Shown piece after piece: positions 8,405 to 59,552 of a DNA stretch of 64,000 bases. Numbering within the stretch: the first letter of the stretch is position 1; the number at the start of each line of letters is the position of its first letter. The stretch spans positions 434,001-498,000 of the forward strand of contig NZ_AWFI01000001.1 in the NCBI RefSeq assembly GCF_000682775.1, in the 5' to 3' direction. A model generated the notes under the pieces. It saw nothing but the letters and a program-made list of their open reading frames with translations, did no database searches and had not been told where the DNA came from. The stretch comes from Hyphomonas sp. L-53-1-40 (GTDB lineage: Bacteria; Pseudomonadota; Alphaproteobacteria; Caulobacterales; Hyphomonadaceae). A program made the translations under genes and the position numbers.

Positions 8405-9457
8405 TTATTCCGGGTGGGGTGGTGGCGGACCACGTCGCTGGCTGGCGTCGCAGCTGGCCGAAGGGGAATCCAGTACGCATCCGGTCTGGCCAGTGTGACA
8501 GCCAATGATGGCGTTACTGCCGGGCGTGTCGACGTGATAGTGATAGCCCAGCCCCGAAATATCATGTCCACGACAGGTATCCAGATCCGTGGGCTCGGTA
8601 CCATCCGTATTCAAACGCTCATGGATTGCGTAGCCATCCATCGCCAGTCCGATCATGGGGGCGTGCCCATCGGGGCTTTCCACGCCTTTGAGGCAGTCTG
8701 TCGCCGCGTGCAAATGGTAACCCGCGAATGGGTTTACATGTCCGCCGCAATCGTCAAATGGCGCCAGTGTGTGCGCGGACAGGATCGCGTCTGTAGGCGC
8801 GGACGCATCCATTTTTGCGCCGCTGAAGGCGACCCCGACGCCACCGTGATCCACGCGAGGGGCGATACGTGAGGCCGCAGTGCTCTCCAAGGGGATCACA
8901 AATGTCTGGGTCAAGCCTTCATCGAGGTATGAAATCTGGCATTCGACGCAATGATTTTCATAGGCCAAGTCGACATCGGACCTTGCCGCGGCCTCGCAAG
9001 CAATTTTGTTGTCGGTGACATTTATCTTTCCGGTCTCCGGGTCGAACATCTGCCAGACATCGTCCTTGTAGAATTCCGGCAAATTCTGGATGAAGCTGCC
9101 ATCGGCGTCATAGACTTTACCGCCGTCCAGCCAGATGCCAGCCATGTCCGGACCGTCGGAAATATTGCGCGGGCACCAGGGGCCAATATCGAATTCTGAT
9201 GGTTCAGGATTCAGGGTCAGTGAAAGGCATTGGGTCTCAGTGCCTTCTGATAATGTACAATCGACGACACTTGGGCCTTTTGAAAGTGCCGCCGGGTCGA
9301 ACAAGGCGGCAATTGGGGGCAGTTCGGTGGGGGCGACGGCGTGAGCGACATCGGGCTGATCCTGTTGACCTGTCGCTTTCGTGGGTTCGGCGCAACCAGC
9401 CAACAAGCAGGCTGCCGAATAAGCGCCCGCGACTTTCAGGGTGAAATAAATGCGCAC
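8405..9457 (-). CDS. YHYH-domain lipoprotein
   Basis: A secreted protein of about 350 residues with the YHYH domain. The motif is in GLGYHYHVDTPG near the C terminus, preceded by other His/Asp clusters (CGGHVNPFAGYHLHAATDCL, GLAMDGYAIHE). Many paired cysteines suggest disulphides outside the cytoplasm. I place the start at GTG 9457 because GGGAG lies 8 bases upstream and the resulting N terminus is a clean lipoprotein signal ending in LLAGC. The longer frame upstream of this GTG would bury the signal peptide. The function of YHYH proteins is unknown; metal binding is a guess from the histidines. The gene is convergent with the YcaQ-like gene. Confidence 0.8.
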   Translation of the reverse strand: MRIYFTLKVAGAYSAACLLAGCAEPTKATGQQDQPDVAHAVAPTELPPIAALFDPAALSKGPSVVDCTLSEGTETQCLSLTLNPEPSEFDIGPWCPRNISDGPDMAGIWLDGGKVYDADGSFIQNLPEFYKDDVWQMFDPETGKINVTDNKIACEAAARSDVDLAYENHCVECQISYLDEGLTQTFVIPLESTAASRIAPRVDHGGVGVAFSGAKMDASAPTDAILSAHTLAPFDDCGGHVNPFAGYHLHAATDCLKGVESPDGHAPMIGLAMDGYAIHERLNTDGTEPTDLDTCRGHDISGLGYHYHVDTPGSNAIIGCHTGQTGCVLDSPSASCDASQRRGPPPPHPE

Positions 9458-9609
9458 GGTGAAGGCTCCCGGAATGGTAAGATATTCAGAGCCACACCGA
9501 ACGAAGGGTGAAGGGCCTGTGATCGTGTCTATTCTCGTTGAAATGTTGTCACACTTTGTCAGCATAGTCTAAAAGAGCAGCGACCAACCGCCCGAATAGC
9601 GAGTTTATC

Positions 9610-48633: not shown

Positions 48634-49437
48634 ATGACCCGACAGCCCCATCGCCAACGCCTAATCCGGCAGGTCCGGCTCCAGCGCCTGCTGGGGCGGA
48701 GCATGGCGGAGATCGCAACGCAGGTTGGCCGGGGCGCCAGCACCGTCTGGCGTGTGATCCGGGACAATGGGCTCGACGCTCCGGAGATGCCGCTGGAGCG
48801 CCAGCGCCTGTCGCTGAGCGAGGCACACGACAAGGCGGTGGACCGCATGATGGCGGCGGATGTGACGCCGGAGGAGTTACGCGGGCTGAGTGGCCTGATC
48901 ATGCGGCTGGCGGCGGAAATTCGGCGGATGGAAATGGCGGTGGCGACTTGGGAAGGGGATGAGGATGTGCGGATTGCCGGACGTGCCGACGAAGACGAAG
49001 CGGGCGAAGACGCCGAAGACGAACTCTCCCCAGCCGCTGAACAATGCCGGCTGGACGCCCTTGCTGCCGGATTTCAAACAAAGGGCGCGTCAGGCGGCGC
49101 AGAGCAACGACTGGAGCACGCTGGCGGAATGGGAGTGCAGCCTGGTCAGCCAGAATCCGTGGATTCTGCACGCCCGCGATATACAGGTGCCGCCGCCGGG
49201 CGGATGGCGGAGCTTCGTGTTCATGGGCGGACGCGGCGCTGGGAAGACGCGGGCGGGGGCCGAATGGCTCCGCTGGTCGATGATTCACGGGCGGTGTCAC
49301 CGGGCGGCGCTGGTGGGGCCAGCCCTGCACGATGTGCGCGAAGTGATGATCGATGGGCCGAGCGGGCTGAAATGGATCGAGCCGCTGAAGTGCCGCCGCC
49401 CGCACTACTCACCCAGCCGGCGTATCCTGAGCTTTGA
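48634..49437 (+). CDS. Small-terminase-like HTH protein (GTA gene 1 type)
   Basis: A 267-residue frame behind GCAGGAGG. The N-terminal 100 residues contain an HTH (MAEIATQVGRGASTVWRVIRDNGL), then a helical region rich in Arg and Glu, as in GTA small terminases. After about residue 110 the frame overlaps the large terminase gene by 479 bases and looks like an out-of-frame shadow. The real protein may therefore be shorter, or its original stop may have been lost. Only the N-terminal part is supported by composition. Confidence 0.5.
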   Translation: MTRQPHRQRLIRQVRLQRLLGRSMAEIATQVGRGASTVWRVIRDNGLDAPEMPLERQRLSLSEAHDKAVDRMMAADVTPEELRGLSGLIMRLAAEIRRMEMAVATWEGDEDVRIAGRADEDEAGEDAEDELSPAAEQCRLDALAAGFQTKGASGGAEQRLEHAGGMGVQPGQPESVDSARPRYTGAAAGRMAELRVHGRTRRWEDAGGGRMAPLVDDSRAVSPGGAGGASPARCARSDDRWAERAEMDRAAEVPPPALLTQPAYPEL

Positions 49438-50350
49438 CAATGGGGCGGAAGCGCATGTGTTCTCTGCCGAAGATCCGGACAGTTTGCGCGGGCCGCAATT
49501 TGATGTGGCCTGGTGTGATGAGATCGCGGCCTGGATGCGCGGGCAGGCCGTGTGGGACACGTTGCAAATGGGGCTGAGGCTGGGGGCGGAGCCGCGCGTG
49601 ATGGCGACGACCACGCCGCGACCGACGGATTTCTTCAAGGGGCTGCTCACCGGGCCGGGGACATTGGTGCGTCAGGCCAGCATGGCCGAGAATGCGGAGA
49701 ATCTGTCAGATGGGTTCGTGGCGGCCATGCAGGCGGCCTATGGCAATAGCGCGCTGGCCCGGCAGGAGATTCATGGCGAATTGCTGGAAGATGCCGAAGG
49801 CGCGCTGTTCCGCCGACAGATGATTGATGCGGCACGGGTGAGCGCGCCGCCCATGCTGGAAGATGTGATCGTGGCTGTGGACCCGCCCGCAACGAGCGGG
49901 CCTGCGGCGGATGCCTGCGGGATTATTGCGGCGGGCGTGCGCGACGGGGTCGCCTATGTGCTGGCCGATGCGTCGGCGCCGGGCCTGAAGCCGCTCGACT
50001 GGGCAAGGCGGGCGGTGGCGGTGTGCCGCGAGGTTGGCGCGCGAGAGATCATTGCCGAGTCCAATCAGGGCGGGGAGATGGTGCGGCAGGTGCTGGAAAG
50101 CGCCGGGGCGGATGTGCCGGTGCGTCTGGTGCATGCGCGGCTGGGCAAGCGCGCACGGGCCGCGCCGGTGGCGACGCTGTATGAGCAACGCCGTGTCGCG
50201 CATGTCGGCCTGTTGCCGACACTGGAAGATCAGATGTGCCAGTTCGGCGCGGAAGGGTTTCGCGGATCGCCTGACCGGGTGGATGCGCTGGTCTGGGCCA
50301 TCTGGGCACTTTTGCAGCAGGGCAGTGGGCCTTGGGTACGGGTCTTGTGA
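48959..50350 (+). CDS. GTA large terminase (packaging ATPase/nuclease)
   Basis: About 463 residues at most. The ATPase has Walker A in FVFMGGRGAGKTRAGAEWLR and Walker B/motif FDVAWCDEIAAW, followed by MATTTPRPTDFFKGL. The RNase H-like nuclease is seen as VIVAVDPPATSG and the acidic residues in GAREIIAESNQGGEMVRQVL and DRVDALVWAIWAL. It cuts and pumps DNA into the head. The N terminus before about residue 45 is not conserved, so the start may be further in. It precedes a gap of about 2.7 kb before the portal gene, filled by foreign genes. Confidence 0.9.
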   Translation: MRMCGLPDVPTKTKRAKTPKTNSPQPLNNAGWTPLLPDFKQRARQAAQSNDWSTLAEWECSLVSQNPWILHARDIQVPPPGGWRSFVFMGGRGAGKTRAGAEWLRWSMIHGRCHRAALVGPALHDVREVMIDGPSGLKWIEPLKCRRPHYSPSRRILSFDNGAEAHVFSAEDPDSLRGPQFDVAWCDEIAAWMRGQAVWDTLQMGLRLGAEPRVMATTTPRPTDFFKGLLTGPGTLVRQASMAENAENLSDGFVAAMQAAYGNSALARQEIHGELLEDAEGALFRRQMIDAARVSAPPMLEDVIVAVDPPATSGPAADACGIIAAGVRDGVAYVLADASAPGLKPLDWARRAVAVCREVGAREIIAESNQGGEMVRQVLESAGADVPVRLVHARLGKRARAAPVATLYEQRRVAHVGLLPTLEDQMCQFGAEGFRGSPDRVDALVWAIWALLQQGSGPWVRVL

Positions 50351-50410
50351 TCTGCCTTGATCTTGCCAGACCCGTGATCGAAGGTGCGGGTCGAAAGCGA
50401 GGGATTTCAG

Positions 50411-51503
50411 ATGAGCCAGATGACACGCCGGGCCTTTACCGCCACCGGACTGACGGCTGCAGTGGCCGGATGTGCAAGTGTTCCGCAGACGCCGGGCATG
50501 GTGATGAAGCCTGTGCCGCCGGTGCGCGTGTCTGCGGACCGGATCGTGCGCGTGGACGTGGGGCTGAGGCCCTATCGGGCGTCCGGTTTCCGCGTGGAGC
50601 GGGAGATGCTGGGCGAGACGACGGTGGTCCACAATTACGGACATGGCGGCGGCGGGATCACCCTGTCCTGGGGCTCGGCGCAGCTGGCCGTGGAGGAAGG
50701 GTTTGATCCGGATGTGGCGGAATATGCCGTGCTGGGCGCGGGGGCGCTGGGCCTGTCGACGGCGATGTTGTTGCTGGAACGCGGGGCGAAGGTGACGCTC
50801 TATGCCAAGGCGCTGAGCCCGAACACGACCTCCAACATCGCAGGCGGGCAGTGGTGGCCGGCTTCGGTGTATGACAGTGCGGCCATCGCCCCCGGATACA
50901 TGGACCGGCATGTCGCGGCGGCGCGTCATTCTTTCCGGCGGTTCCAGTTACTGACAGGGCCGGAGTACGGCATCAGTTGGGAAGTGAACTATGTCTTGTC
51001 TGACCGGCCCGTGACCAACCATCCGGCGCGGGCGGGCCACCCGATGGAGGAGTTTGCCATCAATGTTGTCGACTATGCGCCGGGCGAATTGCCCTTCACG
51101 ACCGCGCATGCACGCAGCTTCGACACGATGATGGTGGATACGCCGCATTATCTGCGCAAGCTGGAAGAGGATATCAGGGAACGGGGTGGACGGATCATTG
51201 TGCGCGAGTTTCAGGATGCGGCGCAGGTGGCGGCGCTGGATGAGGCGGTTGTGTTCAACTGTACCGGGCTTGGCGCGGGCAAACTGTTTGGTGATACCGA
51301 AATCCATCCGGTGCGCGGCCAGCTGGTCATCCTCGAGCCGCAGGCCGAGATCGACTACAATATCATCACTGGCGGCTCGGCCTACATGTTTGCTGGGCGG
51401 AACTTTCCAGCACCATAACTGGTCGCTGGAACCGAGCGATGCCGACACCGCCGCGATCCTCGCCGCGAACCGGCGCCTGTTTGCGGGTGGGGTTGGGGCC
51501 TAG
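50411..51503 (+). pseudogene. FAD-dependent D-amino-acid-oxidase-like gene, frameshifted
   Basis: Start ATG 50411 (GAGGG upstream). A Tat/lipoprotein-like leader (MTRRAFTATGLTAAVAGC) leads to an FAD domain with AEYAVLGAGALGLSTAMLLLERGAKVTLY, NTTSNIAGGQWWPASVY and NCTGLGAGKL. The frame reads through ITGGSAYMF and then shifts at about 51392, ending at 51418. The proper ending (LGGTFQHHNWSLEPSDADTA, AANRRLFAG) continues in another frame to 51503. Residues normally between AYMF and GGTF are missing, so a deletion caused the shift. It lies inside the GTA cluster but is not a GTA gene. Confidence 0.82.
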
Positions 51504-51943
51504 CCCCCGGTGCGGAAGGCTTTCCGGCCGAAATAGGCGTTCTTGGGGGCGGGGGGCGTGTCGTCCGCGCTCGCGTCTTCGGCGGCCTTGGCGGGTTCGG
51601 TCGGCAGCGGATTGGTGCCGTTCATCAAGCCGCGGATCCAGGCGCAGGCGGCACCAGCCGTCGAGACTTCAAGGTCCGGGACAGATCGGTCCATGCGGCG
51701 CGCCAACTGGCGGGCCTGGTGGGCGGTCAGCGATTTCAGCGTGGTTTCGAACAGGTCGGCCCCGACGGTATCGCGCAGGTGCTTCATGTCGTCCGTGGTC
51801 TGGCCAGCGGAGATCATCAGCTTTTTTACCAGCAGCATTGTCGCCGCCGCAAAATCCTTCTCGCCCAGCTTGGCAAAGCGATCGCGTTGGTTGAGCAGGG
51901 ATTCCAGCGCTACGGCGCTGCGGGGAGTGGCGGTGTCGCTCAT
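51500..51943 (-). CDS. ParA-operon partner of unknown function
   Basis: A 147-residue protein whose ATG overlaps the ParA stop as ATGA, so the pair is translationally coupled. It is mostly helical (LESLLNQRDRFAKLGEKDFAAATMLLVKKLMI, LFETTLKSLTAHQARQLARRMDRSVPD), with a C terminus rich in Pro and Ala. No known ParB features are seen. Position behind ParA suggests it is the partner or cargo adapter of the ATPase. The gene ends 4 bases inside the dead oxidoreductase gene on the other strand. Confidence 0.6.
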   Translation of the reverse strand: MSDTATPRSAVALESLLNQRDRFAKLGEKDFAAATMLLVKKLMISAGQTTDDMKHLRDTVGADLFETTLKSLTAHQARQLARRMDRSVPDLEVSTAGAACAWIRGLMNGTNPLPTEPAKAAEDASADDTPPAPKNAYFGRKAFRTGG

Positions 51944-52824
51944 TGAATTTTCTCTCGTACTTCCTTGAGCAGGCTCTCGATGATGCCGAGCGCGTCACCG
52001 GGCCATTTGGCCTGCAGCGTCGGCTCCGGGCCAAGCTCGATCGGGTTGGTGGCAAAGCCCTGCTTCATCGGGATGACCGTGTCGAACATGTCGAACTCGG
52101 TTTCCTTGGCGCTGGCGGCCTCGCGCATGGCATTCAGCACGACTTGCTGGTGCGGCGTGCCATCATAGCGGGTGGCGAGCACGCAGGGCAGGTTCTCGAT
52201 ATCGCGATTGCGGAGGTTTCGCATGATATCGCCCGTGAACAGGTCGAGGCCGAGTGTGGACATAAAGTCCGGAATGGTTGGTACAATGATCAGGTGGCTG
52301 GCGGCGAGGACGGTTTCGGTCATCACCGAAATGCCGGGAGGGCAGTCGCAGATGATGACGTCATAATCGGCCTTCAGCTTCTCGAAATCATCGCGCATGC
52401 GGCGGCCAACCTGGCCCTGCAGCGCTTCCATGGAATAGCCCTTGGCGGTAAGCTCATAGATCAGCTCGCGCTCGGTCTTGCGCAGGCGCGGCGAGGACGG
52501 GATCAGGTCCAGTTCGAGCGGCTTGCCATTATAGCTGACATCAGACGCGTCGGTGACGATGAATTCCGACAGGCGCTTGTGCTCGCCAGCGAAGAAATTC
52601 TCCAGCAGCCAGTCGGAAATCGTGACGTAATCATTGATGGCCTGAAAGAGGTGCTCGTCGCCTTCATGACCGTAGACCAGCAGGGACGCATTGGCCTGTG
52701 TATCCAGGTCCACCACCAGTGTGCGAAAGCCATTGGCCGCAAAAGCTTCTGCCAGACTGACACAAGTAGTGGTTTTGCCAACGCCGCCCTTGGAGTTGGC
52801 GACGGAAATGACACGTGCCGACAT
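51940..52824 (-). CDS. ParA-family ATPase
   Basis: About 294 residues from ATG 52824 (AAGGAG 9 bases upstream). The deviant Walker A is VANSKGGVGKTTTCVSLAEA, Walker A' is VVDLDTQANAS, and Walker B is DVIICDCPPGISVMTETVL. It is a positioning ATPase of the ParA type; the cargo may be DNA or a protein complex. No parB or parS is seen beside it. It sits, with its partner gene, on the opposite strand between the terminase and portal genes. Confidence 0.88.
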   Translation of the reverse strand: MSARVISVANSKGGVGKTTTCVSLAEAFAANGFRTLVVDLDTQANASLLVYGHEGDEHLFQAINDYVTISDWLLENFFAGEHKRLSEFIVTDASDVSYNGKPLELDLIPSSPRLRKTERELIYELTAKGYSMEALQGQVGRRMRDDFEKLKADYDVIICDCPPGISVMTETVLAASHLIIVPTIPDFMSTLGLDLFTGDIMRNLRNRDIENLPCVLATRYDGTPHQQVVLNAMREAASAKETEFDMFDTVIPMKQGFATNPIELGPEPTLQAKWPGDALGIIESLLKEVREKIQ

Positions 52825-53041
52825 TCTGTAAGCTCCTTTGCCCCTGATCGAATGGCGAAAGAGCAGATTTGCGCCCGTCTGGCTATGGCTGCGGGCCAAG
52901 AAAATACAGGGATAGTGACCGGTTAATCCTCAACTATTTCGCCATAGCGGACTGATTTTTCGCGACTTTTCCAAGCTGAATCCGATGGGGGTGGCGAGGA
53001 TTTAATTTCTGCTCATCAACGCAAATGGAGCAGCGCCCCTC

Positions 53042-54175
53042 ATGAACCCGATCTGGCCCTTCAACCGTCGCCCGCGCGAGGCGAAATCCGCGCCCCCTCT
53101 GGTTGCGCTATCCGAGGTAGGTGAGGCCCGTTGGGGCAGCCGGGACGGCGCGGCCCTGACGCGGGACGGATATCTGGCCAATGCCATTGCCTATCGGGCG
53201 GTCCGCATGGTGGCGGAGGCGGCGGCTGCGGTGCCGCTGGTCACGGCGCATGAGGGCGCGAGTCGCCTGTTGCGACGGCCCCAGCCGGACGGCATTGCGA
53301 CAGAATTGTTCGAGACGGCCTATTCCCAGCTCCAGTTGACCGGGAATGCGTTCCTGGAAGGGGTGCGACTGGAGGCGGCGGACGGGGCGGGAGTGTCGGC
53401 GCTTTATGCGCTGGCCCCGTCCGCCATGCGGCCGGTTGCGGATGCGCGCGGATGGGTCGAGGCTTGGGCCGTGCGTGAGCGTCATGGCGAGCGACTGATC
53501 CGGCGCGATGCCGAGACCGGCTGGAGCCCCGTGCTGCACCTGAAACTGTTCAACCCGGTCAGTGACACGATGGGGCTTCCGCCGCTTGGCGCCGCAAGGC
53601 GGGCGCTGGACCTGCACAATGCGAGCGCCGACTGGGCCAAGGCCCTGATCGACAATTCGGCCAAACCCTCCGGCGCGCTGGTCTATGGCGGGCATGGGCG
53701 GATGCCGCCGGACCAGTTCGACGCGCTGAAGGCCGAACTGGAAGGCATGTATTCCGGCGCGGCGAATGCGGGGCGGCCGCTATTGCTGGAGGGCGGGCTG
53801 GACTGGCGGCCGATGTCGCTCTCGCCGGCAGAGATGGATTTCCTTCAGGCGCGGCATGGCGCGGCGCGGGAGATCGCGCTGGCGCTGGGCGTGCCGCCCA
53901 TGCTGATCGGCATTCCGGGAGATAATACGTATTCAAACTACAAGGAAGCAAACCTCGCTTTCTGGCGGATGACCGTATTGCCGCTGGTGCAGAAGATGGC
54001 TGCGGCGCTGTCGGCCTGGCTGGATGTGCCGTTCGGCGCGGAAGTCGAGGTTCGCGCGGACATTGATCGCGTGCCCGCCCTATCGGCCGAGCGCGATGCG
54101 CTCTGGGCGCGCCTCGAGGGCGCGAGCTTTGCGACAGGCGAAGAGAAGCGAAAGCTTGCGGGGTTGCAGCCATGA
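53042..54175 (+). CDS. HK97-family portal protein (GTA)
   Basis: A 377-residue portal with GGAG upstream of its ATG. Typical blocks are LTRDGYLANAIAYRAVRMVAEAAAAVP, LQLTGNAFLEG, VLHLKLFNPVSDTMGLPPL, FDALKAELEGMYSGAANAGRP and ALALGVPPMLIGIPGDNTYSNYKEANLAFWR. It forms the ring through which DNA enters the head. Its stop overlaps the next start. The sequence looks intact. Confidence 0.93.
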   Translation: MNPIWPFNRRPREAKSAPPLVALSEVGEARWGSRDGAALTRDGYLANAIAYRAVRMVAEAAAAVPLVTAHEGASRLLRRPQPDGIATELFETAYSQLQLTGNAFLEGVRLEAADGAGVSALYALAPSAMRPVADARGWVEAWAVRERHGERLIRRDAETGWSPVLHLKLFNPVSDTMGLPPLGAARRALDLHNASADWAKALIDNSAKPSGALVYGGHGRMPPDQFDALKAELEGMYSGAANAGRPLLLEGGLDWRPMSLSPAEMDFLQARHGAAREIALALGVPPMLIGIPGDNTYSNYKEANLAFWRMTVLPLVQKMAAALSAWLDVPFGAEVEVRADIDRVPALSAERDALWARLEGASFATGEEKRKLAGLQP

Positions 54176-54402
54176 AGCTCGACCGGAAAGTGACGATCGG
54201 ATTCCTCGTCGCCGTGCTGGTGCAGACCGGCGGGGCGCTGGTCTGGGCGGGCGCGGCAGCGGAGCGGATTTCAACGCTGGAAGACACGGTGCGCGACCGT
54301 CGCGGCGTGGTCGAGCGGCTGGCGCGTGTCGAGGAGGGCGTGGACCGGATGGAAAGCCAGCTGGACCGGATCGAGCGGCGATTGGAGGGCGCGGATGAAT
54401 AG
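54172..54402 (+). CDS. Small GTA protein with a membrane helix and coiled coil
   Basis: A 76-residue protein overlapping the portal stop. A membrane helix (IGFLVAVLVQTGGALVWAG) is followed by a coiled coil (ISTLEDTVRDRRGVVERLARVEEGVDRMESQLDRIERR). A small gene of this kind stands between portal and protease in RcGTA-like clusters; its role is not known. It overlaps the protease start by 8 bases. Confidence 0.8.
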   Translation: MKLDRKVTIGFLVAVLVQTGGALVWAGAAAERISTLEDTVRDRRGVVERLARVEEGVDRMESQLDRIERRLEGADE

Positions 54403-54811
54403 GGATACGCCCCTCCTGATCGAAGGCTATGCCTCGCTGTTCGGTGTGCCGGATGCGAGCGGAGATGTCGTGCGGGCGGGCGCCTTTGCCCGCAGCCTGC
54501 AGCGGGGCACGCAACTGCCCATGCTGTTGCAGCACAGGCCCGGCGCCATGGCCGGACGCTGGGTGCGGATGATCGAGGATGGGCGGGGGCTCTATGTGCG
54601 CGGTCTCGTCGAAGGTGTCGCGGCGCGGTCGCTGGTGGCGCAGGGGCTCAGCGGCCTCTCCATCGGGTTTCGCCCACGCCTCTGGAACGCACGGCGCCCG
54701 GATGGGCGGGAACTGGTCGAGGTGGACCTCGTCGAAGTTTCCCTCGTGACCAGTCCGATGCAGGCACGGGCGCGGTTTTCCCTGCTGGGGGCGGAGGCAA
54801 AAGCGGCGTGA
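54395..54811 (+). CDS. HK97-family prohead protease (GTA)
   Basis: About 138 residues from ATG 54395. The S78 (HK97) protease core shows EGYASLFGVPDASGDVVRAGAFARSL, His in LLQHRPGAMAGRW, Ser in GLSGLSIGFRPR and ELVEVDLVEVSLVTSPM. It cleaves the capsid delta domain during head maturation. It is shorter than phage proteases but normal for a GTA. A dispersed repeat lies between it and the capsid gene. Confidence 0.92.
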   Translation: MNRDTPLLIEGYASLFGVPDASGDVVRAGAFARSLQRGTQLPMLLQHRPGAMAGRWVRMIEDGRGLYVRGLVEGVAARSLVAQGLSGLSIGFRPRLWNARRPDGRELVEVDLVEVSLVTSPMQARARFSLLGAEAKAA

Positions 54812-54828
54812 CTGGGAAGCCCGCGCGC

Positions 54829-54921
54829 GTGCTTCGACCCCGGCCATCGCTGGGGCAGGCTTCGCTCAGCATGAGCGCTTTGAAAGTACGGAACTCATCC
54901 TGAGCGACGTCGAAGGATGAT
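54829..54921. repeat. Dispersed intergenic repeat (TCATCCT/AGGATGA type)
   Basis: TCATCCT at 54895-54901 and AGGATGA at 54914-54920 form the ends of a hairpin around GAGCGACGTCGA, and CTTCGCTCAGCATGAGCG precedes it. Units of this kind are scattered between genes in many alphaproteobacteria. It lies between the protease and capsid genes, where a hairpin could affect transcript stability. Confidence 0.55.
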
Positions 54922-54945: not shown

Positions 54946-56112
54946 ATGACCAAGGAAACCAAGATGGCGGGCGGCGGCGATGCCGAACTGATGGCCGCCT
55001 TTGCCGCCTATACCGAGGCGAATGATGCCCGGCTGGCCGAGATCGAAGCCAAGGGTGCAAGCGATCCGCTGACGGATGAGCGGCTGTCGCGCATTGATCG
55101 GCGGCTCGAAGCGCTGAGCCTGAAAATGGCCCGGCCGGAGGCAGGCGAGGGGAAGACCGCCGACGAGGATGCGCGCAGCGCGGCCTGGGGACGTTATTTG
55201 CGCAGCGGCGATGATAGCGGGCTGTCGCGGCTGGATGTGAAGGCGCTGAACACCGGTACGGATGAGCAGGGCGGCTATATTGCGCCGCCGGAACTGGACC
55301 GACTGATCGAGTCGCGCCTGCTGGCCGCGAGCCCGATGCGCCAGATCGCGACCGTGCGGCAGACCTCTGCGGGCGTCTACAAGAAGCCGGTCGGGCTTGG
55401 CGCGGCGGCGAGCTGGGTCGGCGAACAGGTTGCGCGGACGGAGACGGCGCAATCTGGGCTGTCGCTGCTCGAATTCCCGGCGGGCGAGCTTTACGCCATG
55501 CCGGCGGCGACGCAGACCCTGCTGGAAGATTCCTATGCCGATATAGATGCCTGGCTGGCCGATGAGGTGGAAGCCGCCTTTGCGGCGCAGGAATCAGCTG
55601 CCTTCATCAGCGGCGATGGCGACGGCAAGCCGAAGGGCTTTCTCGACTATGATATTGTTGCCGAGGCGAGCCATGTCTGGGGCAAGGTGGGCTCGGTGGC
55701 CGGGGACTTTACCGCCGCCGATGCGGCTGACCAGCTGATCGATTTGATTTACACACCGAAAGCGCAGTTCCGCGCCAATGGCCGTTTCGTGATGAACCGG
55801 CGCACCGTGGCATCCGTCCGCAAGCTGAAGGATGTGGACGGGCGCTATATCTGGCAGCCCGGCACGGGTGGCGAGCCCGCCACGATCATGGGCTATCCGG
55901 TGACCGAGGCCGAGGACATGCCGGATATCGGCACGGGCAATGCGGCCATCGCCTTCGGGGATTTCCGGCGCTTCTACCTGATCGCCGACCGGCAGGGCGC
56001 GCGTGTGTTGCGCGATCCATATTCCGCCAAGCCCTTCGTGCTGTTCTACACGACCAAGCGCGTTGGCGGCGGCGTGCAGAATTTCGACGCTGCGAAAGTG
56101 ATGGTGTTTTAG
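54946..56112 (+). CDS. HK97-family major capsid protein (GTA)
   Basis: A 388-residue capsid protein with a GGAG ribosome site. A coiled N-terminal delta-domain (residues 15-75) is followed by the HK97 fold: LNTGTDEQGGYIAPPELDRLIESRL, LLEFPAGELYAMPAATQTLLEDS, AFISGDGDGKPKGFL, FVMNRRTVASVRKLKD and IMGYPVTEAEDMPDIGTGNAAIAFGDF. About 400 or more copies would form the head. The sequence looks intact, in contrast to the tail genes. Confidence 0.95.
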   Translation: MTKETKMAGGGDAELMAAFAAYTEANDARLAEIEAKGASDPLTDERLSRIDRRLEALSLKMARPEAGEGKTADEDARSAAWGRYLRSGDDSGLSRLDVKALNTGTDEQGGYIAPPELDRLIESRLLAASPMRQIATVRQTSAGVYKKPVGLGAAASWVGEQVARTETAQSGLSLLEFPAGELYAMPAATQTLLEDSYADIDAWLADEVEAAFAAQESAAFISGDGDGKPKGFLDYDIVAEASHVWGKVGSVAGDFTAADAADQLIDLIYTPKAQFRANGRFVMNRRTVASVRKLKDVDGRYIWQPGTGGEPATIMGYPVTEAEDMPDIGTGNAAIAFGDFRRFYLIADRQGARVLRDPYSAKPFVLFYTTKRVGGGVQNFDAAKVMVF

Positions 56113-56285: not shown

Positions 56286-56489
56286 ATGTTCGAATCCATT
56301 CTCACCACCCTCATCCGCCAGGCCGCTTTGTTGACCGGCCCGCAGCAGGAGGAATTCACGACCAAGATTGCCGAGGCGCTCTCGACCCTGATCAATTCCA
56401 CCGAGACCGAGATCGACAATGAACTCGTCCGCAGCGTTGCCCTGCCCATTGGCGGCGCGCTGATCGGGAAGCTGGAGGGGATGGTTTAG
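56286..56489 (+). CDS. Small protein in the GTA cluster
   Basis: A 67-residue protein with AAGGA before its ATG. It is helical and amphipathic, with FTTKIAEALSTLINSTETEID and a C terminus with IGGALIGKLEGM. It resembles no GTA gene I know and stands between capsid and connector. Its stop overlaps that of a small frame on the other strand. Confidence 0.6.
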   Translation: MFESILTTLIRQAALLTGPQQEEFTTKIAEALSTLINSTETEIDNELVRSVALPIGGALIGKLEGMV

Positions 56490-56680: not shown

Positions 56681-57214
56681 ATGAACAATCTGACGGTGAT
56701 CTCACCGCCGGACGGGGAGGCTTTGTCTCTCGGCGCGGCGAAGGACTATCTCCGCATCGGCCATGCGGGCGAGGATGAGCTCGTCACAGGCCTGATCGCG
56801 TCGGCGCGGGCGCGGCTGGAGGCCGAGACGGGCTTGGCGCTCCTCACGCGCACGGTGAAGCGGTGGTTCGACCGCTGGCCATCGGGCGTGACGCGGACCG
56901 GCATGCGGCTGGTGCCCGGGCCGGCCTCGGCGCTGGTCTCGGTCGAGACCGTCGATGCAGACGGTGCAGCACAACTCTACACCGCGCGGTTCGCGCTCAG
57001 CGGCGGGCGGCTGGTGGCGCTGCCATCCATTCCGCCGGGCGGAAATGCGGATGTGACCTTTGTCACTGGCTTCGGCGCGGCGGCGGATGTGCCGGAGGAT
57101 CTGGTGCAGGCGCTGAAGCGGCTGGTGCTGGCAGCCTATCGGCGCGAGAGGGGCGAGGCCCTGCCGGACGAGGTCCGCGACATCCTCGCCGCGCGGCGGG
57201 AGCGGAGACTATGA
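56681..57214 (+). CDS. Head-tail connector (GTA gp6-like)
   Basis: A 177-residue protein of the phage gp6-like connector family: LGAAKDYLRIGHAGEDELVTGLIASARARLEAETGLALLTRTV near the N terminus and a C-terminal helix PEDLVQALKRLVLAAYRRERGE. It docks on the portal and joins head to tail. Its stop overlaps the start of the truncated DUF3168 gene. It is the last apparently intact GTA gene. Confidence 0.88.
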   Translation: MNNLTVISPPDGEALSLGAAKDYLRIGHAGEDELVTGLIASARARLEAETGLALLTRTVKRWFDRWPSGVTRTGMRLVPGPASALVSVETVDADGAAQLYTARFALSGGRLVALPSIPPGGNADVTFVTGFGAAADVPEDLVQALKRLVLAAYRRERGEALPDEVRDILAARRERRL

Positions 57215-57399
57215 GCGCCGAGGCCGCCATCGAAAGCGCGCTGATGGATTTGCTGCGCGCAGATGCAGGCGTGCAATCCGTGTTCGGCAATCCGGCACGC
57301 GTGTTCGACGCCGAAAGCGATGCGCCGATCTTCCCCTATGCCCAATTGGAGCGCCATGAAGTGACCCCCGCCGGGGCGGCTCAGGCTGACGCATGTTGA
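57211..57399 (+). pseudogene. Truncated DUF3168 gene (GTA tail terminator)
   Basis: Starts at ATG 57211 with GGAG upstream. The first 55 residues match DUF3168 (AIESALMDLLRADAGVQSVFGNPARVFDAESDAPIFPYAQLERHEVTP), but the frame ends after 62 residues instead of about 130. The conserved second half is absent. The sequence beyond the truncation belongs to the host-specificity protein, so a large deletion joined the two. Confidence 0.82.
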
Positions 57400-58534
57400 T
57401 CTGGAGGCGGACTATCAGCCGGGCATGGCGGAGGCGCGAATTAACGGCGGTGATGCAAGGCTGGTGCAGGACGTGGCCGTCGGGCGGAAGCTGTTGCAGC
57501 CGCGCTGCTGGCATCGGCAGCGAGCGGGGAGACGACGACCTGTGCGGTGTCACTCTCGGCGCTCGCATTGGAGCCGGGGGATGGGTTGCGCGTTGAGGGC
57601 GGGCAGGTCTGGCGTGTCACGGATGTAGTCGACCGGGGCGGCGTGCGGGCGCTGACCTGCCGGGAGGAGGTTGCTGCGGTGCCGCGCGTGCGGGCTGGCG
57701 AGACGGGCAGCGCGCCGCCGGCTGCGGACCTTGTCGTCATGGATGCGCCGAGCCTGCCGGAGCTTGGCGAAGGCGTTGGGCCGCTGGCGGCGGCATGGGC
57801 CGATCCGTGGCCAGGTGAGGTGGTCGTGTCTGCCGGTCTGGCCGACGACGCGCTGAGCGAGGCGGTGCGACTGGACCGGCCGGCGGGAAGCGTGCGGCGC
57901 GGGGCCGGTGGGGCGGTGGGACCGCGCAAATGCGCTGGATGTGTATTGTCCGGGCGGAGAGTTTGCGAGCCTGCCGGAAGATCGTGTCCTGTCGGGCAGC
58001 AACGCCGCGCTGCTGGAGACGGCGACGGGGTGGGAATGTGTGCAGTTTGAACGAGCTGACCTGATCGCGCCGGACACATGGCGTCTGACCAGGCTGTTGC
58101 GGGGGCAGCGAGGGAGTGTGCCCGGCGACGCAGCGATTGGCGCGCGGTTGGTTATGCTGGATGCGGCGGTGGCGCGGGCACGCCTTGGCGGGGAGGCCTA
58201 TGGGGCGGAGCTGGTCTGGCAGGCCAGGGCGGATGATATCCCACAGACGGCCATGTTCGAGGACCGTGCGGGCTTGCCCTGGCCAGTGACGCACCTGCGG
58301 GTGCAGGATGGCCAGCTCAGCTGGACCCGGCGCGGATCGGATGTTCCAGAAAGCTGGGCCATGCCGGAGGCGGAGAATGTTGGCCGGTTTGCCGTCGCAT
58401 TCGATATGGGGGCGGGATTTGGCGCGCAAACTGTGGTGGAGGCGCCCTTTGCAGACTGGGTAGAGGGCGCAAATGCGGCGCGGGTGGCTGAGATCGGACC
58501 GGATGGGCGGACGGGCTTTTGGACCGTCATTTGA
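57376..58534 (+). pseudogene. C-terminal remnant of the GTA host-specificity protein (gp15-like)
   Basis: Three frame segments together give the end of the gp15-like protein. First comes a short stretch with LTHVDLEADYQPGMAEARI. Then, after a shift near 57490, AEAVAAALLASAASG and LALEPGDGLRVEGGQVWRVTDV, followed by PSLPELGEGVGPLAAAWADPWPGEVVV. After a second shift near 57900 comes NALDVYCPGGEFASLPEDRVLSG, then TWRLTRLLRGQRG and the end at 58534. The N-terminal bulk, about 900 residues in relatives, is missing. The remnant cannot make a working tail tip. Confidence 0.8.
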
Positions 58535-58670
58535 CGAGTTGCTAGCTGCCAAACCGGGATGCATTGCGGCGCGGGTCGATCCGGTAAGGTAATATCCGGG
58601 TTTCATTACGGTTCCGGACATCCTAACTGTGATCGGATATCAGATTCGTGACTGGAAGGATTTTCCGCCC

Positions 58671-59552
58671 TTGGCCCTCGATCCCTATAAAGTGCTCGGC
58701 GTTGACCGCTCGGCCAGCGAGGCCGAAATCAAGAAGGCGCATCGCCGGAAGGCGAAGGATTTGCATCCGGACCAGAATCCGGACGATCCCAAAAAGCTGG
58801 AAGCTTTCAAGCAGGTCTCGCAGGCATGGGACATTCTTGGCGACAAGGAAAAGAGAGCCAAGTTCGACCGCGGCGAGATTGACGGAGACGGCAATCCGAC
58901 CGGCTTTGGCGGCGGCTATCCGGGCGGCGGGCCCGGCGGCGGGGGACAGCGCTGGGAAACACGCGGCGGTGGCAATCCGTTTGGCGGCGCACAGGGCGAC
59001 CCGTTCGAGGATATCCTCTCTGGCATGTTCGGCGGTGGCGGCCGGTCGCGTCGCAGCGGGCCGGTCAAGGGCCGTGATGTACGCTATCGCGTGACGATCG
59101 ACTTTGCGGATTCAGTCACGGGCGCGCGGCGGCGCATGACCATGGCCGACAATACAGCGCTGGATGTGAATATTCCGGCAGGCATTGAATCTGGGCAGAC
59201 GCTACGTCTGAAAAGTCAGGGGCAGGCATCGCCCAATGGCGGACCGCCCGGAGACGCCTTGCTGGAGGTTGAAGTGAAGCCCAGCAGCGTCTGGGAACGC
59301 GATGGCAAGGATCTGCGCATGTCAGTACCGATTGATCTCAAGATCGCGGTGCTCGGCGGCAGTGTCGAGGTGAAGACACCGTCCGGCCCGGTGACTTTGA
59401 AAGTTCCTGCGGGCTCCAATACCGGCTCTCAATTGCGTTTGCGCGGCAAGGGTGTGCAGACATCCACGCCGGGCAATCTCTACGCTCGACTTGAAATCGT
59501 GCTGGATGATCCGAAAGATGACGGGCTGAAAGCCTGGGCTGAAGGGCGCTAG
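58671..59552 (+). CDS. CbpA-like J-domain protein (class B, no zinc domain)
   Basis: About 293 residues from TTG 58671 (AAGGA 10 bases upstream), giving the usual LALDPYKVLGV start; a GTG at 58629 lacks a ribosome site. The J domain has DLHPDQNPDD with intact HPD. A Gly-rich linker (GFGGGYPGGGPGGGG) leads directly to the two C-terminal beta domains (VNIPAGIESGQTLRLKSQGQ, LRLRGKGVQTS). Without zinc repeats it is a class B co-chaperone of DnaK. It is the second J protein in the window and converges with the GGDEF-EAL gene, 4-base overlap. Confidence 0.9.
   Translation: MALDPYKVLGVDRSASEAEIKKAHRRKAKDLHPDQNPDDPKKLEAFKQVSQAWDILGDKEKRAKFDRGEIDGDGNPTGFGGGYPGGGPGGGGQRWETRGGGNPFGGAQGDPFEDILSGMFGGGGRSRRSGPVKGRDVRYRVTIDFADSVTGARRRMTMADNTALDVNIPAGIESGQTLRLKSQGQASPNGGPPGDALLEVEVKPSSVWERDGKDLRMSVPIDLKIAVLGGSVEVKTPSGPVTLKVPAGSNTGSQLRLRGKGVQTSTPGNLYARLEIVLDDPKDDGLKAWAEGR

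Follow-up and report, generated by a model that had tools for sequence, protein, structure and literature searches.

It is very probable that the RcGTA-like gene transfer agent (GTA) cluster, a domesticated phage, of the marine bacterium Hyphomonas sp. L-53-1-40 that lies in the window (the whole stretch of 64,000 nucleotides analysed here) was inactivated by a single recent deletion of 5.6 kb, and that this event is one of about 14–16 separate losses of the cluster in the genus. Pfam and NCBIfam profiles, together with the gene order of relatives, locate the cluster at 48.6–58.5 kb of the window, which is part of an 868-kb contig (C1) of a 3.31-Mb genome that is 99.94% complete. Hyphomonas atlantica, H. 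pacifica and H. jannaschiana are among the named relatives with a related capsid.

The truncated cluster and its deletion junction

The head genes of the window cluster stand in GTA-type order. The closest relatives are L036 (a MAG, same locus as genome G035) and L104 (genome G017), with ∼84–92% DNA identity in the region. In the following list the gene numbers g2–g15 are those of RcGTA.

48634..49437, plus strand: TerS-like HTH ORF (HTH_23 below cut-off, E 0.004), present as the same 267-aa ORF in L036, its 3' part overlapping TerL
48959..50350, plus strand: large terminase TerL (g2), open, 463 aa (PF03237, PF17289; 94% identity to L036)
50384..51418, plus strand: FAD oxidoreductase (DAO-like), a non-GTA gene broken by a 20-bp deletion; the L036 ORF is open (379 aa, PF01266)
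51500..51943, minus strand: geneX, 147 aa, antisense within the cluster, no Pfam or NCBIfam match
51940..52830, minus strand: ParA-like ATPase (AAA_31, CbiA), antisense, upstream bookend of the deletable interval
53042..54175, plus strand: portal (g3), open (PF04860, TIGR01537)
54172..54402, plus strand: g3.5, open (99% identity to L036)
54395..54811, plus strand: prohead protease (g4), open (PF04586; 99% identity to L036), ATG start read off the sequence
54946..56112, plus strand: major capsid (g5), open (PF05065, TIGR01554)
56286..56489, plus strand: 67-aa ORF located between the capsid gene and g6, conserved in genus loci (PHROG match at E 0.046 only)
56681..57214, plus strand: head-tail adaptor (g6), its frame open although 15 bp are deleted in frame (TIGR02215, phrog_442)
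57211..57399, plus strand: truncated tail terminator g8 (DUF3168, PF11367), native to 57380 and then out of frame
57380..57381, plus strand: deletion junction; 5,592 bases of L036 are absent
57386..58534, plus strand: C-terminal stump of g15 (megatron), about residues 803–1203 in shifted frames (PF23666, GTA_megatron; alignment to relatives)
58629..59552, plus strand: DnaJ-like gene, downstream bookend, matched in 42/42 genus genomes

A preliminary description of this DNA had claimed that a large deletion fused g8 to g15 and removed the tail half, and the comparison with relatives bears this out. The 62-codon ORF at the junction matches PF11367 (Tail_completion_gp17, E 4.7e-07) over profile positions 2–50 of 124; g8 is 136 aa long when intact, as in L036 and L104, and in the window it is cut after ∼57 codons, its final six codons being g15 sequence read out of frame. 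What follows is the C-terminus of g15, with a match to PF23666 (Rcc01698_C, E 3.8e-24) at 57908–58531 and to positions 1061–1243 of 1299 of NCBIfam GTA_megatron (90.9 bits, cut-off 800). The join corresponds to L036 12386|17979, the gap relative to L104 being about equal, and alignment with both relatives reveals an intact 5.6-kb tail module exactly at this point, where g8 through g15 are each a single open frame. Missing from the window are the end of g8, g9 (PF06199), g10, g10.1, g11 (PF09718, tape measure), g12, g13 (PF09931), g14 (NlpC/P60) and about residues 1–802 of g15. The L036 cluster is complete from g2 to g15, with a GTA_megatron match above the cut-off, and L104 has portal to g15, its contig beginning after the terminase. 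The window cluster, without a complete g9–g15 tail and baseplate and with GTA_megatron below the cut-off, is a remnant and not a working member of the RcGTA-like GTAs.

The motif GCGGC (5 bp) occurs at the breakpoint and is common to both flanks in L104. Illegitimate recombination, probably at such a short direct repeat, would account for the single internal 5.6-kb deletion that fused g8 with the last part of g15 and thereby inactivated the cluster. Since no tail remains, transfer would be dead: an infective GTA particle could not be expected to form when its tail tube, tape measure and baseplate are missing, and tailless heads would be the most that the cluster could still make. At other scars in the genus BLAST matches overlap, and these overlaps represent candidate microhomology.

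The preliminary description had also taken the head genes to be intact. This holds for the reading frames, as TerL, portal, g3.5, protease, capsid, the 67-aa ORF and g6 are all open, and requires a correction for the head block as a whole, in which TerS/TerL stand apart from portal, with the broken gene for the FAD oxidoreductase and two genes in antisense orientation in between. Directly downstream of the oxidoreductase, 383 bp are also absent relative to L036, and L036 carries between g3.5 and protease a palindromic-looking, REP-like insert (9351–9486) that is not present in the window. The 67-aa ORF was matched in 16/19 genus GTA loci searched (57–96% identity), with no match in L106 and L108 (L116 stops short of it) and no Pfam family; it is a candidate for a head or connector gene of the GTA that has so far gone unrecognised. 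GeneX could be extracted from 38/42 genus genomes, with or without GTA, and ParA is strongly matched in 41/42 (the exception being G013), GTA-less ones included.

A misassembly, with an artefactual junction in a strain whose cluster would be complete, is highly improbable. It is judged here from assembled sequence, and the only other record found with the exact junction, IMG/VR contig L196, is probably the same assembly because its entire length of 10,588 bp matches the window at 100% identity. Yet the junction lies deep inside its long contig in a nearly complete genome, an assembly join would not create three extra deletions in the stump (see below), the missing 5.6 kb were found on no other contig, and 21 other species genomes are without the cluster at the same locus. 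The preliminary description had proposed to look for the tail genes at another locus, and in the window genome the queried tail sequences were not found: a 6.4-kb DNA query from L036 matched at its two flanks only, the g13 protein, present in 18/42 genus genomes, was not detected, and neither PF06199 (tail tube) nor PF13547 (GTA_TIM) gave a match, the Caulobacter control being positive. Ranked by capsid, the next six IMG/VR contigs (L197–L202; 97–99% identity) all run on into tail sequence. In the case of L196, what IMG/VR lists as a viral contig is the head remnant of a dead GTA in a bacterial genome.

That listing, and the fact that the head genes belong to phage families, could be taken to indicate a decayed ordinary prophage instead of a GTA. 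We regard this as exceedingly improbable: g15 of L036 scores 1265.9 bits for GTA_megatron and has the GTA_TIM domain, position and gene order are the same across GTA-positive members of the genus, with a congruent tree, and no integrase or replication family was found among the ten window ORFs scanned.

Selection, small deletions and the age of the loss

An MG94-type codon model with branch-specific omega was fitted to the window, L036, L104 and L107. For the head set (portal, g3.5, protease, capsid, 67-aa ORF and g6; 1,187 codons, TerL left out) omega is 0.048 (0.030–0.072) on the window branch vs 0.068 in the background, so that the relaxed selection for which the preliminary description proposed to examine portal and capsid was not observed. 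The g15 stump (380 codons) yields 0.202 (0.126–0.325) vs 0.092 (2dL 7.68), and the neighbours DnaJ, ParA and geneX yield 0.036 vs 0.073. When L108 is added as outgroup, the rise in the stump is not significant (0.180 vs 0.114, 2dL 2.43), and omega = 1 is rejected (2dL 36.9, L108 included). Free-ratio estimates for the stump region are 0.085 for L036, 0.151 for L104, 0.076 for L107 and 0.194 for the window; L104 reaches its value with an intact g15. A single window/background ratio for head and stump is disfavoured (2dL ∼9.6–9.8, on a coarse grid). Taken together, this favours head genes that are still constrained, as seen in one lineage with few substitutions.

Small indels differ likewise. 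The stump has three more deletions that are specific to the window and not common to L036, L104 or L107 (22 bp after 57478, 18 bp after 57725 and 17 bp after 57885), so that the 1.15-kb stump contains two frameshifting deletions, compared with zero frameshifts in the head genes. The indel scan covered TerS–TerL against L036 only and had 54403–54899 (protease) outside it; in the head part its sole window-specific event is the in-frame deletion in g6, and no window-specific indel was found in TerS–TerL (vs L036 only), portal–g3.5 or capsid. The window DnaJ gene shows a 3-bp gap as well as an insertion of 3 bp.

Because the stump omega is well below 1 (0.18–0.20), the deletion occurred late on the window branch. 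If this omega is assumed to mix functional and neutral time, point estimates place the event within the last 7–12% of the branch, that is, in roughly its last tenth, with a range of ∼0–26%. Hence 'frozen partway through loss', the reading offered in the preliminary description, is not the best one, the more so as in 21/42 genus genomes the loss at this position goes further. The window is a fresh case of recurrent collapse rather than a frozen relic, because losses across the genus are unclustered and mostly on tips, as detailed in the next section.

Probable recurrent loss at one locus across Hyphomonas

The locus, bracketed by the kept ParA-like and DnaJ-like genes, was surveyed in 42 Hyphomonas genomes: the cluster is present in 19, lost at the locus in 21 and intermediate in the window alone, G024 being unjudgeable (its g15 runs from residue 46 to the contig end). 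The state of G013 is based on sequence at the edge of a contig, and contig ends interrupt six of the GTA-positive genomes (G008, G009, G016, G033, G034 and G041). The window capsid is matched in 21/42 genomes, 20 matches being of GTA type and the one in G032 only 25% identical. In the 34 genomes with both bookends on one contig, the ParA–DnaJ spacing is 11.1–12.05 kb in 13 and 0.38–2.71 kb in 20; the window, at 5.80 kb, provides the sole value between 2.71 and 11.1 kb, and among the many deletions at this locus its own has gone least far. Broken or partial matches in GTA-positive genomes (g15 in G039 and G016, g10 in G034) may reflect early decay or sequence error.

Recognisable and differing stumps are left in 15/21 lost genomes, and none was detected in G014, G025, G028, G036, G037 and G038. 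Six stumps read as follows.

G003: protease joined to g15 1033
G027: portal 59 joined to g15 720
G010: portal 338 joined to g15 1091
G022: portal 234 joined to g15 1073
G019: portal-g11-g12-g15
G029: portal 40, g6, g15 1132

In G003 (L131 5244–11508) terminase, portal, g3.5 and protease are whole, and capsid and tail are deleted up to the end of g15. In G019 (L139 2778–3400) the g11–g12 piece is 92% identical to that of the sister G020, the flanks being 97–98% identical. The g15 stumps of G003, G019 and G027 have omega values of 0.166, 0.273 and 0.120 (2dL against 1: 4.7, 8.3 and 171), which, being below 1, fit recent loss; against recent loss stands the portal stump of G019 (56 codons), with omega 0.749 vs 0.036. 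TerL is uninterrupted without a capsid in four genomes, where its omega on the branch vs the background is 0.076 vs 0.192 (G003), 0.084 vs 0.178 (G006), 0.000 vs 0.106 (G019) and 0.117 vs 0.124 (G027).

These survivors bear on the preliminary suggestion that the head genes are kept for another purpose. On such a reading, the products of the terminase, portal, protease, capsid and adaptor genes would go on forming tailless heads that package DNA, perhaps in a storage, lysis, decoy or stress role, and selection would keep these genes. The low omega of the window head set, set against the higher one of the stump, and the frameshift-free head genes above a stump with two frameshifting deletions speak for it. 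The test has little power, however, because the deletion is recent and most of the branch predates the loss, and both the lack of significance with L108 and the value of L104, whose g15 is intact, weaken the rise in the stump. Moreover, there is no consistent retained set: portal and terminase survive without capsid in G003, and G006, G019 and G027 keep only terminase genes whole, so that the differing survivors argue against a general head-particle function. We therefore consider selection for tailless heads improbable, although a head function may have been kept in the window.

Trees were built from rpoB, ParA, DnaJ and geneX (41 tips) and from rpoB alone (33 tips), G024 being left out; they thus rest on one to four genes, two of which are the locus's own bookends. 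On these trees complete and lost states do not cluster, with 14 Fitch changes vs 13.8 in shuffled data for 41 tips and 11 vs 11.2 for 33 tips. On the four-gene tree 22 of the 41 tips count as lost, the window among them; 16 irreversible losses compare with a simulated mean of 9.0 (P 0.004), and the terminal loss rate is 16 relative to an internal rate of 1 (2dL 14.3); with rpoB alone (18 lost) the figures are 14 vs 7.5 (P 0.004) and 21 to 1 (2dL 12.0). In the weakest variant, in which G013, G024, G033, G034 and G038 were dropped, the tip bias is less marked, with 13 losses vs 7.7 (P 0.0145). Single species make up 13/16 lost clades; the others are G014–G030, G022–G026 and one of five species (G015, G025, G032, G036 and G037), so that some loss lies off the tips. 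If loss is irreversible, then 14–16 losses are needed, mostly on tips, and GTA loss in Hyphomonas is frequent, young and mostly tip-located.

The unclustered states would also be expected if the pattern arose by gain or regain of the GTA through horizontal transfer or recombination, and the bookend flanks, common to GTA-positive relatives, would make homologous replacement easy. This explanation is nonetheless unlikely for the genus pattern. The main clades are the same in the GTA tree and the rpoB tree (r 0.90, 120 pairs, 16 genomes), some shallow nodes differing; inheritance of the GTA in the genus is thus mostly vertical at this level, and the agreement implies that replacement across clades is not the cause of the pattern. 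In addition, the stumps differ among species, and a scan of G009 vs G018 detected no GTA-specific identity tract. For this pair (GTA distance ∼0.003, rpoB ∼0.023) a GTA-specific exchange was discounted, the whole locus and its flanks being 99.1–99.7% identical. Many separate losses hence remain our preferred reading, with repair by homologous recombination between close species as a possible addition.

Absence of the GTA capsid extends beyond Hyphomonas and is commoner there by raw counts, the capsid being found in 17/38 Hyphomonas genomes vs 39/53 genomes of eight other genera (completeness at least 90%, E up to 1e-40, G024 counted as capsid-less).

Implications and relation to known GTAs

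GTAs are old, and the genus-wide pattern of loss bears on why bacteria keep them; its lasting interest is that losses are frequent and mostly young. Roughly one in two species genomes of Hyphomonas no longer has the cluster, after losses at a single site that were separate and for the most part recent. The genus thus offers a natural experiment on what GTAs cost and what they bring, in which the scars can still be read and closely related sisters with the GTA are available (G019/G020, G004/G008). The half-deleted cluster of the window allows one to test whether tailless heads do anything. To explain why the losses are young and mostly on tips, either GTA-less lineages would tend to be replaced, or their losses would be repaired by recombination with GTA-positive relatives. 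It is thus tempting, if tentative, to speculate that with half of the species GTA-less and the losses young and on tips, GTA-less lineages are short-lived or repaired, that the GTA is kept by between-lineage selection or repair and not by benefit to the producer, and that the window represents a first step, with head genes still selected after loss of the tail. A limited search of the open-licence literature found no earlier report of GTA scars in Hyphomonas. According to Redfield and Soucy 2018 (PMC6209664), modelling indicates that neither transfer of its own genes nor a plausible recombination benefit can maintain a GTA, its producers being lysed.

The relatives of the window match the RcGTA-like GTAs (Rhodogtaviriformidae) in the order TerS-TerL-portal-protease-capsid-g6-g8-(g9-g15), and share with them a GTA_megatron g15 and vertical inheritance on the main clades. 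The window differs in lacking g9–g14 and two thirds of g15, and Hyphomonas differs in having ParA and geneX inside the cluster. To our knowledge, the Caulobacter CcGTA is the nearest studied system. PF20057 (DUF6456), which we take to mark the C-terminal part of GafZ/GafA, was found in 0/42 Hyphomonas genomes, the Caulobacter control being positive, and Hyphomonas GTAs may use another activator. An antisense passenger gene, CCNA_02873, is described within the Caulobacter GTA cluster in PMC9632790, and resembles in this respect the antisense gene inside the Hyphomonas cluster. Finally, some alphaproteobacteria are without RcGTA-like clusters, which Kogay et al. 2019 (PMC6821227) read as purging or non-acquisition where a GTA is useless or harmful; in comparison with the absences treated there, those in Hyphomonas have left visible scars at the same locus in 21/42 genomes (15 with stumps), to which the half-deleted cluster of the window is to be added.
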